The notes under the pieces were generated by a model, which did not search any database, was not told the DNA's origin, and worked only from the letters and a program-made list of their open reading frames with translations. The translations under genes were made by a program, and so were the position numbers. From positions 1-24,143 of the IMG/VR virus record IMGVR_UViG_3300042899_000043: a DNA stretch of 24,143 nt; one strand, 5' to 3'. Position 1 is the stretch's first letter. Each line of letters opens with the position of its first letter. The stretch comes from a virus. Below are positions 5,874 to 10,903 of this stretch, piece by piece.

Positions 5874-5895
5874 AACCCCTGACGGATCAGGGGTT
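5874..5895. terminator. Bidirectional intrinsic terminator after the three-gene accessory unit
   Basis: AACCCCTGA and TCAGGGGTT form a perfect 9-bp stem with a 4-nt CGGA loop. On the minus strand it is followed by TTTCTTTTTG, and on the plus strand by GTCTTTTTATTT. It closes the minus-strand unit 6570-5910 just upstream of the connector gene. Confidence 0.9.
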
Positions 5896-5909: not shown

Positions 5910-6152
5910 TTAGCGGTGGTATCTATCATCGCATCCAGTGCAAGGAATCAGTGTTCCAAGTTGTGTTACTGCATCTGCGTATGCTTCTCTAGCCGTATCG
6001 CCTGAAGCAGTGAACCCGTGACCATCTTCGTGACCTGACCATTGTTGATTCCAAGCATCCATCATTACTACAACGTAACCGTCACCGAATTCGATTTCGA
6101 TTTCCACGTTTGCTTTCTTTGCTTTGTTAAGTAACTGTTGTTTTGTTGCCAT
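5910..6152 (-). CDS. Hypothetical protein, third gene of the minus-strand accessory unit
   Basis: The product has 80 aa and a basic start (MATKQQLLNKAKKANVEI), then alternating hydrophobic residues (GDGYVVVMMDAW) that suggest beta strands, a helix (DTAREAYADAVTQLG), and a C-terminal CTGCDDRYHR with a CxxC pair. The beta-beta-alpha look and the sequence DTAREAYADAV recall small double-stranded-RNA/HicB-like or WGR-like folds, but I cannot assign it. It starts 2 nt after the stop of the preceding gene and ends about 15 nt before the terminator stem. It is probably a late or lysogenic accessory product of unknown function. Confidence 0.7.
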   Translation of the reverse strand: MATKQQLLNKAKKANVEIEIEFGDGYVVVMMDAWNQQWSGHEDGHGFTASGDTAREAYADAVTQLGTLIPCTGCDDRYHR

Positions 6153-6154
6153 CG

Positions 6155-6367
6155 TTATGCACCTACCTTTGTTGCTGTCCAGTTCTTGCCGTCAATTACT
6201 AGAGAGATCAATCCACGATTTGCAAGTGACTTAAATGTTGTTAATGAATAAATTTTGTCGGTGTTTGTAAATGTCCAACCGCAGTTAATTTGACTTAATG
6301 CATTTCTTTGAGTGTTGCTTAAATCGGCGTTAGCGTGATGGCTAATCATTCCGTTGTGACGATTCAT
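6155..6367 (-). CDS. Hypothetical protein, second gene of the minus-strand accessory unit
   Basis: The 70-aa product begins MNRHNGMISHHANADLSN. Its C-terminal two thirds (SLTTFKSLANRGLISLV then GKNWTATKVG) looks like a winged-helix-type pattern: a helix, then NRGLI and a strand. A DNA-binding role is therefore possible but unproven. It starts at a TAATG junction with the 67-aa gene, so the two are translationally coupled. It was not recognised as a named family. Confidence 0.7.
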   Translation of the reverse strand: MNRHNGMISHHANADLSNTQRNALSQINCGWTFTNTDKIYSLTTFKSLANRGLISLVIDGKNWTATKVGA

Positions 6368-6570
6368 TATGCACCTGCCTGTGCGAATTGCTTTGCTGAT
6401 TTTAGTGTGTCGAATACGAAACCCTTGAATGTAAAAACTACGCCTAAACCGATTGCATCAACTTTGTAGATAGTTCCGAAAACGTAACCCTCATTTATTG
6501 CGATGTATTGAACGATGTTGTTGTCGCTATCGCGAACTGTTTGATATCGAACTGTTGTCTTTGTATTCAT
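6367..6570 (-). CDS. Hypothetical protein, first gene of the minus-strand accessory unit
   Basis: The 67-aa product begins MNTKTTVRYQTVRDSDNNIV and appears to be mostly beta strands (YIAINEGYVFGTIYKV, GVVFTFKGFVF) with a short C-terminal helix (TLKSAKQFAQAG). There is no membrane segment or known catalytic motif. AAAGGA lies 7 nt upstream of the ATG, at the end of a structured leader driven by the promoter at 6644-6616. That leader is shared with the plus-strand unit starting at 10350. The function is unknown. Confidence 0.75.
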   Translation of the reverse strand: MNTKTTVRYQTVRDSDNNIVQYIAINEGYVFGTIYKVDAIGLGVVFTFKGFVFDTLKSAKQFAQAGA

Positions 6571-6654
6571 TTGCTTTTCCTTTGTCCTAGCAGGTTTCCC
6601 TGCGCTTATAAGAACATCATACGCCTTTGTATAACAGTTGTCCAGTTAATTTAC
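6571..6654 (-). promoter_or_regulatory. Sigma70-type promoter plus structured 5' leader, copy 2
   Basis: TGGACA (6644-6639), a 17-nt spacer and TATGAT (6621-6616) form a near-consensus promoter. The leader carries a hairpin, GCAGG-GAAA-CCTGC (6603-6590), then TAGGACAAAGGA and the ATG at 6570. The same arrangement, with most bases identical, precedes the plus-strand gene at 10350. Confidence 0.88.
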
Positions 6655-7542
6655 AAACTTTTTTTTACCTAGTTCTGCAAGGCTTTTGCGCTCTAATAAG
6701 GCTTTTCGGATGCCGTCACGCAAAGAAATCTGAGGAACAAAGTATTGATGCGACAGGTGCGGATCACCTACGCGAAAGAGAACGCCTGTCGGCTTTTCGA
6801 TTATGTGATTAAAGGTCGGAGCATAACCAACTTCATCGCAAACCATTTTCGCTAACTCATTAAATGAAGTTGCGAATCCTGAACACAAATTAAATGTTCC
6901 AACGTATCCCGTCTGCACGTGCCATAAAACCGCTTGCACAATGTCATCTATGTGAATAAAGTCGCGTACCTGTTCGCCGTCACCCCAAATATCAAATGGA
7001 TCAGACTTAGACAATGCGCGATCTATAAAAGATGGGAACGGATAATCAGAATCTTGATCTGATCCATAACCGCTAAACGGTCTGAACACAAATAATTTTG
7101 AATCAGTGATGAACTGCGCTAAGTATTCGCCTGTTAGTTTTGCCCATCCATAAGTTAGATCAGGATTTGCAACTGCATAAAGATTAAGATCGTGTTCTGC
7201 CAATCTAAGTAGTCGATGTTTATTTTGCAAGTCAATCGGATACGCAGCGGAACTAGAAAAATACACAACATTTTTTGGCTTAGTTCTTTCGACCCAGTTA
7301 AAAAATTCGGCATCAATAGATAGATCAGTTGCAACACTTAACGGTTCATTCTCGATCGTTGCCCTGCCACCGACAATTGCTGCGAGATGGATTACTAGAT
7401 CGAACTGTTCTGTGTTGATCTTAAAAAAGTCGCGACAGTCATTGCCATCTTTTAAGTCGATTCCAGTAATGTCGCTATCGGGTAACGCCTTTACAAAGTT
7501 ACGGCCAACGAATCCTTTATGACCTGTAATTAAAATTTTCAT
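6646..7542 (-). CDS. NAD-dependent sugar epimerase/dehydratase (extended SDR)
   Basis: The 298-aa protein has the Rossmann motif ITGHKGFVG near residues 5-13, HLAA at 52-55, FSSSAAYP at 95-102, the catalytic Y131-x3-K135, and RDFIHIDD at 193-200. These are the marks of nucleotide-sugar epimerases and dehydratases of the extended SDR family, which act in the cytoplasm on UDP-, GDP- or dTDP-sugars; the substrate is not predictable here. I start it at the ATG at 7542, which overlaps the preceding glycosyltransferase stop as ATGA; the GTG six bases earlier is less likely. It is the last gene of the four-gene glycosylation cluster and probably supplies its sugar donor (inference). Confidence 0.88.
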   Translation of the reverse strand: MKILITGHKGFVGRNFVKALPDSDITGIDLKDGNDCRDFFKINTEQFDLVIHLAAIVGGRATIENEPLSVATDLSIDAEFFNWVERTKPKNVVYFSSSAAYPIDLQNKHRLLRLAEHDLNLYAVANPDLTYGWAKLTGEYLAQFITDSKLFVFRPFSGYGSDQDSDYPFPSFIDRALSKSDPFDIWGDGEQVRDFIHIDDIVQAVLWHVQTGYVGTFNLCSGFATSFNELAKMVCDEVGYAPTFNHIIEKPTGVLFRVGDPHLSHQYFVPQISLRDGIRKALLERKSLAELGKKKFVN

Positions 7543-8216
7543 AACCACGCCTTTACGTTTGCCACATCGGTTGCAAATTCGGTGGCTAGGTATTCCGCAA
7601 AAATAGCCTGATCCCCGTTATGCATTTCTGAATTATTTACGGCTGCATATCTTTCATCGTGTTCCGCTTTGCCGTTCGTGTAATGCAGGTGTTCAATAAT
7701 TACATCTGGTAAATAGTTTGCGTTGCCTAAAGCCTGACCCATCGCCAGCCAATAATTATCTAGAAACAAATGCTTTAGGTTAGGTGGTGACATAAATCCT
7801 GTTGCCCTGATTATCTTGCTAGACATAACTACTGCTGTCGGTAAATTCTCGCCTTGTAATAAATCGTTGCCATATGAAATTCCAACATCGCTTCCTATCG
7901 CTTCTGCAAGTTTCGTATCCCATCCACCTGTGCGCGGTAGGTGATCATCGCCCATAAAACAGATGTAATCGTAATCAGGCGAAAACCATAATGCCCAATG
8001 ATTAAGTGTGCCGTTCATTCCCATACGATCAGCAACAACAACTTTAACGTTATCTAGTCCAGCGGTTTTATCCACTAACCCTTGATAAGTTTTTAGATCA
8101 TCATTATCAATTGCAAACACAACTTCTGTAAAGTCTGCTGTTGCGTTGATCGCTTCGAACAATCTGATTGCGTTATCGTTACGGCCACGTGTCGGGATTA
8201 TTGTAAGCATTCTCAT
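7539..8216 (-). CDS. GT-A fold glycosyltransferase
   Basis: The 225-aa product begins MRMLTIIPTRGR, which is typical of GT-A enzymes, then AIDNDD near residues 36-40 and YICFMGDDHLPR around 84-95. GDDH stands where the metal-binding DxD motif is expected. The start chosen is the ATG at 8216, overlapping the previous stop as ATGA; an earlier ATG at 8234 would extend into that gene. The enzyme would transfer a sugar from a nucleotide donor; the acceptor is unknown. It lies inside a coupled block with two GT-B-type enzymes and an epimerase, between capsid and connector genes, so a virion protein acceptor is plausible. Confidence 0.82.
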   Translation of the reverse strand: MRMLTIIPTRGRNDNAIRLFEAINATADFTEVVFAIDNDDLKTYQGLVDKTAGLDNVKVVVADRMGMNGTLNHWALWFSPDYDYICFMGDDHLPRTGGWDTKLAEAIGSDVGISYGNDLLQGENLPTAVVMSSKIIRATGFMSPPNLKHLFLDNYWLAMGQALGNANYLPDVIIEHLHYTNGKAEHDERYAAVNNSEMHNGDQAIFAEYLATEFATDVANVKAWL

Positions 8217-9007
8217 TGTTGTACCAGTCTCCAAAATGTGTTACCTGCCTTGTCAATCATTTCTCGTAAAGCATCTGCATCATTCCAATCTTGAACAGAT
8301 GTAATTCCTACGTTGTCGTTTGTGTGTATTTTGCAACCTGACAGCACCGCTTCCATTACGGCGCGACATTCCGATTCGAATGCTAAAGGTAAATGCACAA
8401 ACCATTCGCATCTAGCCATCGCATCTAAAACTACGGAACGATCAACATCACTTAAATCTAGAAAAGGCAAACCATTCTCTAATGACCAAGCGTGTGCTTT
8501 CAATCTACCTTTTAGTGGATGATTCCGAGCAGCCCACAACGCCATTGATTTCTTATCGAAATGATCGTGACATTTAGTTGTGTCGAAGTAAGAAAGAACC
8601 TGTGCAGTTTTACGTGGTTTTGCCCAAGATAATTCACGGCGCATATGCGCAGGCGTATGAGTAACGAATAAGCGAGAGCCACGAATCAAAGCGTTCAGCC
8701 CTGCCCGCGGTGTTTGTAAATGATGAACGAATACGAACGGATCATATTCACTTAATCTAAACAGTTGCTGATCGGTGAATAAGTCTGTTCCTGTAACAAC
8801 GATCGAATCGAATTTGTGTATGTCGTGTGTATCGAAATCCTGTGGCGTGACGATCTGTATATCAAAATCTAAGGGTGCTTGTTGTTGGTATTCGTAATCT
8901 GACATTTCAGCACCACCCGCGAACTTTCCGCTGAATAGCCATTCTTGCCCCTCAGAGCAAATCTCAGGGGTTTTTACAACGTGGTGGGTGTACCAACCTA
9001 TGTTCAC
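8213..9007 (-). CDS. GT-B-like glycosyltransferase
   Basis: The 264-aa protein begins with GTG at 9007 (NIGWYTHHVV), overlapping the upstream stop as GTGA. An ATG at 9061 would overlap that gene by 58 nt in another frame and is disfavoured. KFAGGAEMSDYEY near residues 28-40 resembles the N-terminal substrate loop of GT-B enzymes. Near the C-terminus, FESECRAVMEAVLSG carries an E-x7-E pattern like the GT4 nucleotide-sugar site. It is shorter than usual GT4 enzymes (about 350-400 aa), so it may be a reduced or partner-dependent enzyme. A plus-strand terminator-like hairpin lies inside the gene at 8948-8975. Confidence 0.75.
   Translation of the reverse strand: MNIGWYTHHVVKTPEICSEGQEWLFSGKFAGGAEMSDYEYQQQAPLDFDIQIVTPQDFDTHDIHKFDSIVVTGTDLFTDQQLFRLSEYDPFVFVHHLQTPRAGLNALIRGSRLFVTHTPAHMRRELSWAKPRKTAQVLSYFDTTKCHDHFDKKSMALWAARNHPLKGRLKAHAWSLENGLPFLDLSDVDRSVVLDAMARCEWFVHLPLAFESECRAVMEAVLSGCKIHTNDNVGITSVQDWNDADALREMIDKAGNTFWRLVQQ
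8948..8975 (+). terminator. Terminator-like hairpin antisense to the GT-B-like gene
   Basis: On the plus strand, CCCCTCAGA and TCTCAGGGG fold around GCAAA with a single C-C mismatch, immediately followed by TTTTT. It sits within a minus-strand coding sequence, so it could stop antisense transcripts or be coincidental. It is only a weak candidate because of the mismatch. Confidence 0.4.
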
Positions 9008-10191
9008 GCTGTTGGCCGTTCTACGGAACGCTGTGCAAGAATTTCCAATGTTGGTTTCCAATGCTTCTCATAGACAAAATCCGCGCTGTAACTTTTAGCA
9101 AATTCAATTGCTTTCTCAGATCGTTCCTGACCACGTTGATATGCTGCTTCTAAAGATTCAACGATTTTCGGAACTGACGGCATATGAAACCACGCTGTCT
9201 GCGGAGCATCCCAAAGCGGTTGCCCATCTACTAACCAGCCATCACCTAGAAGTTCTGTTGATGCCGCGAACTCTGAAACGATTACTGGTGTACCGCAGGC
9301 CTGTGCTTCGATCGTAGGAATTCCAAAACCCTCGCCATAAGAAGTCGCAAGCAATACATCCATCGCTGTATAAATAGTCGCAAGTGTTTGCTGTTCGATT
9401 CCTGTGCGGTAAACGTAAGGATCAATGAATTTGTATTGATGTTCTTTTAATCCAACTGCGGTTAGTAAATCAGTTAATCGAATACCGCCTAGTGCGCCTA
9501 TTGAATCTGTGTGCAAATAAAGGATCGCATCATCGTGCTTTTGTGCAAACATCGAGAACGCCAAAATGTTTTCACCAAATGCTTTTCGATTAGGGCTAAC
9601 ACCCTTATTCGCTGCATTCATTCCGACAATAAATCTGTCGTTAGAAATTCCAATGTAATCTCTGCCTGTAATTCCTTTATGTCTTTTCATTGGCTTAAAC
9701 ACAGATTCAATTCCGTGCGGAACATATAAAGATTCGATGCCAACATTTTCTAACATCGCTTGTCCGTACTGACTCATTGCAATCGGCGTTACGAAATCCT
9801 GCCGACACCACGCAGCAACTTGTGGCGGTGCTGGAACGTGATCGATTGGAACCCAACTTGCAACATTCCAATCTGACCATCGCTTACCTTTGAAAACCCA
9901 CACATCATAAAGTGTAAAAAGAATATGCGGTTGCTTAGGATCGATCATTGTCCAATCGTGCATATGCGCGGGAACAACATCATTCGAATAGAGATCAGCA
10001 CCGCGTTGGTAAATCGGTATGCCGTTCCAGTCTGTGTTGCTTCCCTCTAATCCGTAGTTTGAAAAAATTGCAACATCGTGTCCCTGTTCTTTCATTCGTT
10101 GCGTAACTTGCGCAGTTTGCGTTCCGTATCCAGTTGCAGCCCACGGCGCGTTGCTGTTCCAGCCGATTCTTAATGAGGATTTATTTGACAC
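9004..10191 (-). CDS. GT4-family (GT-B) glycosyltransferase
   Basis: The 395-aa protein has RIGWNSNAPWAATGYGTQT at its N-terminus, the glycine-rich acceptor-side loop of GT-B enzymes. Near residues 287-295, EGFGIPTIE gives the E-x7-E signature of GT4 enzymes, followed by ACGTPVIVSE. The length is normal for the family. The start is GTG at 10191, supported by AGGGAG about 6 nt upstream. It is the first gene of a four-gene cluster lying between the capsid terminator and the accessory unit at 6570. It probably initiates or extends a glycan on a virion component (inference). No convincing promoter was identified in the 158-bp divergent intergenic upstream, which is shared with the plus-strand unit. 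Confidence 0.88.
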   Translation of the reverse strand: MSNKSSLRIGWNSNAPWAATGYGTQTAQVTQRMKEQGHDVAIFSNYGLEGSNTDWNGIPIYQRGADLYSNDVVPAHMHDWTMIDPKQPHILFTLYDVWVFKGKRWSDWNVASWVPIDHVPAPPQVAAWCRQDFVTPIAMSQYGQAMLENVGIESLYVPHGIESVFKPMKRHKGITGRDYIGISNDRFIVGMNAANKGVSPNRKAFGENILAFSMFAQKHDDAILYLHTDSIGALGGIRLTDLLTAVGLKEHQYKFIDPYVYRTGIEQQTLATIYTAMDVLLATSYGEGFGIPTIEAQACGTPVIVSEFAASTELLGDGWLVDGQPLWDAPQTAWFHMPSVPKIVESLEAAYQRGQERSEKAIEFAKSYSADFVYEKHWKPTLEILAQRSVERPTA

Positions 10192-10349
10192 AGGTTCTCC
10201 CTAGATTTCTTACAGCGTAATTTAACAACCCTGAAAAGTCTAATAACCACGCCACAAAATAGTTGTGTAAATCAACTAGACAAATGTTATACAACACTCT
10301 ATGATGGTAGTAACAGCGAGGGGAAACCCTCTAGGACAAAGGATAAGAA
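10192..10349. other. Divergent intergenic region
   Basis: This 158-bp gap separates the minus-strand glycosyltransferase cluster (GTG at 10191) from the plus-strand accessory unit (ATG at 10350). It holds the plus-strand promoter and leader described separately and the AGGGAG ribosome-binding site of the minus-strand gene. I could not identify a good minus-strand promoter in it. Confidence 0.7.
10267..10349 (+). promoter_or_regulatory. Sigma70-type promoter plus structured 5' leader, copy 1
   Basis: TAGACA (10277-10282), a 17-nt spacer and TATGAT (10300-10305) form the promoter. A hairpin GAGGG-GAAA-CCCTC (10318-10331), then TAGGACAAAGGATAAGAA, precede the ATG. Together with copy 2 (6654-6571, minus strand), it shows the same spacing through the hairpin, the same GAAA loop and the same ribosome-binding region; copy 2 has one extra base just before its ATG. 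Confidence 0.9.
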
Positions 10350-10697
10350 ATGAGAACACCAATCAAGACAACAAAGAAAACCATCGAAGATTTAGGTGGC
10401 GCATATGATACTTACGATGCAGAAGTTAGCAGTGGAGAATACGAAGCAGATCTTTGGGATATGGATGAAAGTTCCAACACGATTCTTTTGGATCACGCAA
10501 AAGGTGCGGCGATGTTTCTAGATTGTCTTTACGGCGAGATCCAACATTGTGAAAACGTAATGTGCGAAGAACCAGAAAGTTACGGCATCGCATACAGAAT
10601 GATCAAGCGAATGAGAAAACTGGAAGAACTTGTCTTAGAAAAGTTTGGCGATCAGATTGAACGTGGACCATATGGAAATTGGATGGTGAAGAACTAA
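10350..10697 (+). CDS. Hypothetical protein, first gene of the plus-strand accessory unit
   Basis: The 115-aa protein begins MRTPIKTTKKTIEDLGG and is acidic and probably helical. One helix region spans HAKGAAMFLDCLYGEIQHCE and another is IAYRMIKRMRKLEELVLEKFG. There is no membrane segment and no recognised family. It is preceded by a strong promoter, a structured leader and AAGGA 7 nt before the ATG. It is one of only two genes on the plus strand in the window, placed between convergent capsid and divergent glycosyltransferase genes, a pattern typical of moron cassettes expressed independently of the lytic programme (inference). Confidence 0.82.
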   Translation: MRTPIKTTKKTIEDLGGAYDTYDAEVSSGEYEADLWDMDESSNTILLDHAKGAAMFLDCLYGEIQHCENVMCEEPESYGIAYRMIKRMRKLEELVLEKFGDQIERGPYGNWMVKN

Positions 10698-10903
10698 TGA
10701 AGAAATGTTGCAGCCTGATCTACTGGAAGCACGATGACGGGTGGGATGTATTTCGTAAATCAGATTGCGAAAAGAATTGGGATGGAACTTACTTCCCGAC
10801 AGGATTCGATTGCGCTTTAACTGAGGATCACGAAACTAAGCAAGCAGCAATCAATGAGATGAAAGAATGGCATCGATATGGGATCTGCTTGGTCAGCATC
10901 TAG
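10697..10903 (+). CDS. Hypothetical protein, second gene of the plus-strand accessory unit
   Basis: The 68-aa product begins MKKCCSLIYWKHDDGWDVF and has several Cys and Trp residues. The first half looks strand-rich, then there is a helix (TKQAAINEMKEWHRYG) and a short C-terminal strand (ICLVSI). The start is the ATG at 10697, overlapping the upstream stop as TAATG; an ATG at 10679 in the same frame would lie inside the first gene. A strong terminator follows within 3 nt. The function is unknown. Confidence 0.78.
   Translation: MKKCCSLIYWKHDDGWDVFRKSDCEKNWDGTYFPTGFDCALTEDHETKQAAINEMKEWHRYGICLVSI

Follow-up and report, generated by a model that had tools for sequence, protein, structure and literature searches.

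A covarying hairpin leader precedes unrelated small gene cassettes in related actinobacterial-type phages

Results

Two gene units with homologous leaders

The window analysed here is the whole of a 24.1 kb virus record, IMGVR_UViG_3300042899_000043 (24,143 nucleotides), with its head-tail module on the minus strand; PHROG matches identify a terminase, an HK97-type capsid and a tape measure there. Among isolates, Pontimonas phage phiPsal1 comes closest, with 55% identity in the terminase and 45% in the capsid, which makes an aquatic actinobacterium the probable host. Two small gene units are set into the window: one at site P1, flanked by a glycosyltransferase gene and by the capsid gene, the unit and the capsid gene being convergent, the other at site P2, between an epimerase gene and a head-tail adaptor gene (Table 1). 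Each starts with a predicted promoter, a short hairpin and an element that contains the ribosome-binding site. This leader is the subject of our study.

A sequence-only reading of the window had claimed that the two leaders are homologous and that their stems differ by compensatory changes. Pairwise alignment, with coordinates checked letter by letter, bears out both points: the -35 box (TAGACA or TGGACA), a common TGTTATACAA, a 17-nt spacer, the -10 box TATGAT, a hairpin beginning 12 nt past it, TAGGACAAAGGA and the ATG follow one another in both. The stems (GAGGG-GAAA-CCCTC and GCAGG-GAAA-CCTGC) differ at two of five pairs, each time by a double change that preserves pairing. The likeness exceeds chance, since TAGGACAAAGGA is found at just two places in the window, the two leaders themselves, and since both the covariance-model matches and the hairpin-free scan described below recover the leader elsewhere. 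Rfam 15 gave no match in the window at or above the gathering threshold.

Table 1 Leader elements, cargo genes and terminators of the P1 and P2 units
Feature	Coordinates	Strand	Details and basis
P1 promoter	10277..10305	+	-35 TAGACA 10277-10282; consensus scan, letters checked, homologous in relatives; predicted
P1 spacer dyad TGTTATACA	10285-10293	+	between -35 and -10 boxes
P1 -10 box TATGAT	10300-10305	+	consensus scan, letters checked
P1 leader hairpin GAGGG-GAAA-CCCTC	10318..10331	+	covariation, folding
P1 TAGGACAAAGGA element with ribosome-binding site	10332..10343	+	alignment of 25 copies, letters checked
P1 cargo gene 1	10350..10697	+	115 amino acids, family F0; relatives at P1 and P2 of other phages
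P1 cargo gene 2	10697..10903	+	open frame, ATG at 10697 checked; overlaps gene 1 stop codon
P1/capsid bidirectional terminator	10906..10949		fold; equivalent in empty P1 sites
P2 promoter	6616..6644	-	-35 TGGACA 6644-6639, -10 TATGAT 6621-6616; consensus scan, letters checked; predicted
P2 spacer dyad TGTTATACA	6636-6628	-	letters checked
P2 leader hairpin GCAGG-GAAA-CCTGC	6590..6603	-	covariation, folding, letters checked
P2 TAGGACAAAGGA element with ribosome-binding site	6578..6589	-	alignment of 25 copies, letters checked
P2 cargo gene 1	6367..6570	-	67 amino acids
P2 cargo gene 2	6155..6367	-	70 amino acids; relative in another leader unit (L073)
P2 cargo gene 3	5910..6152	-	80 amino acids; relative in another leader unit (L075)
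P2 terminator AACCCCTGATCCGTCAGGGGTT with T-rich tail	5874..5895	-	not in the 27-30 bp empty sites

The leader recurs across phage records

Scanning IMG/VR for GC-N5-GNRA-N5-TAGGACAAAGG returned some 20 loci in promoter context whose 5-bp stems pair perfectly; chance matches to this pattern had one to three pairs and no promoter context. A covariance model was then built from the two window leaders and the IMG/VR copies. It hit many related records at E values of 1e-7 to 1e-11 (training copies match by construction) and, in 20 of 21 records, found one to three leader copies each, often two or three, some of them divergent with 4- or 6-bp stems.

A further scan left the hairpin out of the pattern (CTAGGACARAGGA-N(3-9)-ATG). 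All 27 copies that stood in phage promoter and leader context carried a 4-6 bp stem. About 43 matches had no stem, and these too lacked that context. Two more, L130 and L146, showed a stem by chance outside any promoter or leader context. Loci L004/L005/L007/L008/L011/L015, L021/L022/L025/L040 and L026/L027 were likewise set aside as chance pattern matches without promoter and leader context.

When 84,980 species genomes of bacteria and archaea were scanned with two exact patterns, no real copy appeared, the lone match (L042, a cyanobacterium) being a chance one with two of five pairs. We thus rejected an element borrowed from the host; in the exact form searched for, at any rate, the leader seems to be limited to phages. 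The covariance model found no match in phiPsal1, and BLAST of the region, the leader and the 10350 protein against isolate phages returned nothing useful. The contigs collected are fragmentary; judged by capsid, the phage group has 560 relatives in IMG/VR. No published description of the leader came up in the literature searches made, a weak indication that it is new.

Stems keep their pairing as their letters change

In an alignment of 25 distinct copies, most of them chosen for a 5-bp stem and a 4-nt loop, 98.4% of stem cells are paired, double changes occur in four of the five pairs, and there is no G-U pair; these copies are related, and sequence counts overstate the number of independent events. 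None of 500 shuffles scored as high on pairing or covariation, slid controls were at most 60% paired, and the RNAalifold consensus consists of the same five pairs.

The more independent evidence for structure is the hairpin-free scan together with single pairs of leaders. Over 86 nt, the leaders of L154 and L155 differ only at both partners of the closing pair, A-T in one and C-G in the other; between these contigs (the same as L034 and L016) the first upstream difference lies 119 nt away. We also sought copies with a conserved primary sequence and a broken stem, which would speak against structure, and found none: in the weakest stems, GAGG-GTCAAA-CCTC, two related copies (L018/L122 and L108) have lost the closing pair only and keep four base pairs. 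Because pairing is kept while the letters of the stem change, the folded RNA itself appears to matter. The proposed selection on RNA structure thus gains support from the covariation in the 25 copies and from the isolated double change.

Loops vary (GAAA, GCAA, GATA, GACA, GTTA, GCGA and AAAA). The element beside the hairpin reads TAGGACA[A/G]AGG and includes the ribosome-binding site. Its TAGGACA is invariant in the aligned copies, an invariance partly imposed in class A (defined below) by search patterns that favoured TAGGAC-containing copies.

Both insertion sites are empty in many relatives

Of 75 P1 loci scored, 54 are empty, 13 hold leader A, seven hold leader B, and one (L187) has no recognisable cassette and is counted as filled, its gap being due to a partial glycosyltransferase match. 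The gap measures 107-193 bp in empty relatives and 446-1043 bp in filled ones. P2 is empty in 18 of the 28 loci with both flanking genes, and the others hold A, C or D (L190, left unclassed by the script, carries an A leader); here the gap is 27-30 bp when empty and 407-821 bp when filled.

The four classes differ in what follows the promoter. Class A has the GNRA-type hairpin; class B has GTTGG-TTCG-CCAAC, once with a TTAG loop; class C reads GG-GCGG-GNNA-CCGC-AT-n-ACAAAGGAG; class D is hairpin-less, with the same promoter and TAGGACAGAG mostly kept. All four recognisably share one promoter, TTGCAT or TAGACA plus TGTTATACA. At P1, leader A accompanies capsids at least 89% identical to that of the window, and leader B capsids 86-87% identical. 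Tandem class D units occur at P2 about 211-214 bp apart (L169, 4057/4268; L207, 8650/8864; L215, 8201/8415).

The spacer dyad TGTTATACA has the look of an operator that a dimeric regulator would bind. Relatives (L073, L075, L188, L203) also have it in the opposite orientation (TGTATAACA), about as far ahead of the leader. That the units are co-regulated had been suggested from the window; a shared promoter with a conserved dyad is consistent with this.

In both cases the genes on either side of the window unit are direct neighbours in relatives, as expected of an inserted moron, and both units have promoter-like sites of their own. The claim that each unit also ends in its own terminator holds for the predicted P2 terminator only: the one predicted at P1 is common to the convergent major capsid gene and has an equivalent in empty sites. 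The deviant G+C content used as a moron criterion is not seen (P1 genes 0.42, P2 genes 0.41, window 0.42).

Cargo is unrelated, and the leader also heads an early operon

The first genes of 53 collected units fall into 32 families, nearly all uncharacterised, in line with the earlier claim that the cargo is unrelated. Families F1, F5, F6 and F8 are not tied to one leader class, the same gene families following A, B and C leaders, and a relative of the window's P1 gene heads a P2 unit in L203/L076. In the P1 units of L161, L162 and L166, the second gene (F7, 184 amino acids) has a weak, below-cut-off match to a YgjP-like metallopeptidase domain and a HELAHH motif, making a phage-encoded protease a possible identity for this protein.

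Five early-region units (L073, L075, L078, L080 and L036) have an identical GAACC hairpin and each a different first gene, after which a conserved gene string follows; in three it could be traced to a protein matching Pfam SSAP_Sak. The slot right behind this leader resembles an exchange point, because the first gene differs from phage to phage and conserved genes come next. In the early-operon promoters, a TGTTATACA-like motif overlaps the -10 box instead of lying in the spacer.

Because an early operon encoding a Sak annealing protein starts with the leader too, the leader is not specific to morons: it marks autonomous non-late units generally. The notion of a moron expression cassette is thereby narrowed. 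The units do behave as morons, but the leader is not restricted to them, and in some homologous cassettes the promoter is the same but a hairpin is missing.

Other features near the units

Downstream of the P2 unit and before the adaptor gene, TAGAATAG followed by TAGGAG (5857-5850, minus strand) resembles a late-promoter -10 box. In empty P2 sites this box overlaps the epimerase stop codon, so the P2 cassette lies directly upstream of it. Two copies of GTGGAGCCAC, spaced by 26 nt, precede the major capsid gene (12235 and 12209, minus strand). Relatives conserve the second copy, and GTGGAGCCAC is possibly a second leader element, for a late gene.

Discussion

Taken together, the comparisons indicate a family of predicted structured 5' leaders in related actinobacterial-type phages, which start autonomous units: mainly small accessory cassettes, plus the early operon. 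Covariation and reuse on unrelated cargo can be read from the sequences themselves; a function for the leader is what we infer from them.

We see an even chance that the leader serves as a generic start module, stabilising the mRNA at its 5' end and insulating it, for genes that are interchangeable. Judging from the -10 box, transcripts would start about 6-12 nt before the hairpin, so that the mRNA would begin with a stable tetraloop stem-loop whose 3' foot would adjoin the initiating 30S subunit on its upstream side. Between them, hairpin and subunit would then fill nearly the whole leader, leaving ribonucleases almost no free single-stranded 5' end. Being self-contained, the hairpin would keep the ribosome-binding site single-stranded whatever gene follows, and the conserved leader could supply short homologies at which recombination might swap cargo.

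Several observations agree with such a module. The distance from the 3' foot of the hairpin to the start codon is 17-22 nt in all 34 class A units and 17-18 nt in class B. Folding of class A gives a mean hairpin probability of 0.96 and a mean unpaired probability of 0.86 for the Shine-Dalgarno region. 5'-terminal stem-loops can stabilise bacterial mRNA (review, PMC7509114). A requirement for shape is suggested because sister phages with the same promoter and site have a different hairpin, GTTGG-TTCG-CCAAC or GG-GCGG-GNNA-CCGC-AT. We rejected a role as terminator or attenuator because no T-run follows any of the 44 hairpins examined.

Other facts weigh against a stabilising and insulating module. 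Its promoter and start site are consensus-based predictions. The strict TAGGACA beside the hairpin, favoured though it was by the search patterns, would be superfluous for a purely structural stabiliser. Class D cassettes have the same promoter without a hairpin, so the hairpin is not indispensable. The predicted ribosome-binding site of class B is less open (0.60), and in one B. subtilis case a stem-loop too near the Shine-Dalgarno sequence lowered mRNA stability (cited in PMC7509114).

More tentatively, and with somewhat less confidence, we picture an evolved, standardised expression socket: a leader of covarying hairpin and ribosome-binding site under a shared dyad-containing promoter, so that arbitrary small genes plugged into fixed insertion sites would be expressed predictably and together, with GNRA and TTCG hairpins filling the same role in sister lineages.

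The invariant TAGGACA could instead be part of a binding site. A phage or host RNA-binding protein that recognises it together with the hairpin might switch translation of all leader units at once, as an RNA regulon. We regard this as unlikely, though it is the main rival, chiefly because TAGGACA stands unchanged beside the GNNA-type loop in the aligned copies (in class A partly with the help of the search patterns) and is retained in some hairpin-less class D leaders; that the leader heads the early operon as well as morons also suits such a regulon. It sits poorly with sister phages that have a TTCG loop and no TAGGACA at the same site, and with stems whose letters are free and loops that vary; no candidate binding protein was identified.

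An improbable alternative is that the promoter-leader block is kept mainly as a short homology for cassette exchange, effects of the hairpin on expression being secondary. Identical leaders with different genes behind them (L154/L155 and the five early operons), gene families shared behind different leaders and sites, and the Sak-type annealing protein encoded by this phage group would all fit a recombination linker. Exchange, however, needs sequence identity, yet the stem letters change while pairing is kept.

Still less probable is a DNA-level element, the inverted repeat being an operator or cruciform site for a DNA-binding protein and not an RNA hairpin. The hairpin does lie at the start of transcription units, and the separate spacer dyad TGTTATACA resembles an operator, but a dimeric protein would conserve the letters of its half-sites, whereas most stem letters vary with pairing kept, and the loop type and the fixed distance to the start codon are conserved. 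That the short hairpins have no function, being inherited by descent with a compensatory pattern from chance or hitch-hiking, is already disfavoured and scarcely credible: the copies are related and their counts overstate independent events, but four pairs have double changes with several pair types per position, one double change is isolated in otherwise identical leaders, and other hairpins are substituted at the same site.

A GNRA hairpin, a TTCG hairpin or none behind the same promoter at the same site makes a clean natural experiment on the role of 5' hairpins in phage mRNA, and would render the role of start-associated elements in actinophages directly testable. The leader also flags autonomous accessory units across a large group of uncultured phages of actinobacterial type. 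With the covariance model their small cargo genes can be listed, plausible candidates for counter-defence or host takeover.

Relation to known systems

In kind, the leader comes closest to three published elements: SAS/ESAS of cluster K mycobacteriophages, the PeSLs of T4-type phages and a motif of the haloarchaeal virus HGTV-1. SAS/ESAS, whose role is unproven, likewise consist of short conserved sequences that recur immediately before the start codons of actinophage genes which are unrelated and mostly non-structural; the ESAS further contributes an inverted repeat next to the ribosome-binding element. The leader is not a member: the SAS consensus GGGATAGGAGCCC has no match in the window at up to three mismatches, SAS being defined by at most two deviations before start codons. 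ESAS are imperfect 17-bp inverted repeats upstream of the SAS, with a consensus per genome and spacers of 4-13 bp, whereas the leader stem has 4-6 bp around a 4-6 nt loop, is mostly sequence-free and covaries.

Arbiol 2010 is said to have described the PeSL stem-loop as a transcription terminator. It is so named in the title of Comeau 2014. As citing papers describe them (PMC4503421, PMC3950731), PeSLs combine an early sigma-70-like promoter with a stem-loop and are repeated in a phage genome beside small, dispensable, shuffling genes. Our hairpin lies in the 5' leader, downstream of the promoter, has no T-run and abuts the ribosome-binding region, in contrast to a terminator. As for gene shuffling, gene families seen behind one leader and site turn up again at others, recombination events themselves not being observed directly. 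In HGTV-1, a TATA-like promoter element and an inverted repeat precede many open reading frames; this is an archaeal virus, compared by description only, and covariation is not reported in the part of the account consulted (PMC3950731).

Lambdoid morons (definition in PMC1524935) are one or more genes with promoter and terminator; like our units, whose promoters and terminators are predicted, they are inserted between genes adjacent in relatives. They differ from the present cassettes, which have a structured leader in common, a G+C content that is not deviant and, at P1, a terminator whose equivalent is already there in empty sites. Finally, in the ompA type of 5' untranslated region (PMC7509114) a stem-loop stands close to the 5' end of the transcript and the ribosome-binding site downstream of it is open, an arrangement predicted here from the -10 box and folding. 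That type belongs to single chromosomal genes, whereas the phage leader is a module reused on many unrelated genes, which it may stabilise in a similar way.

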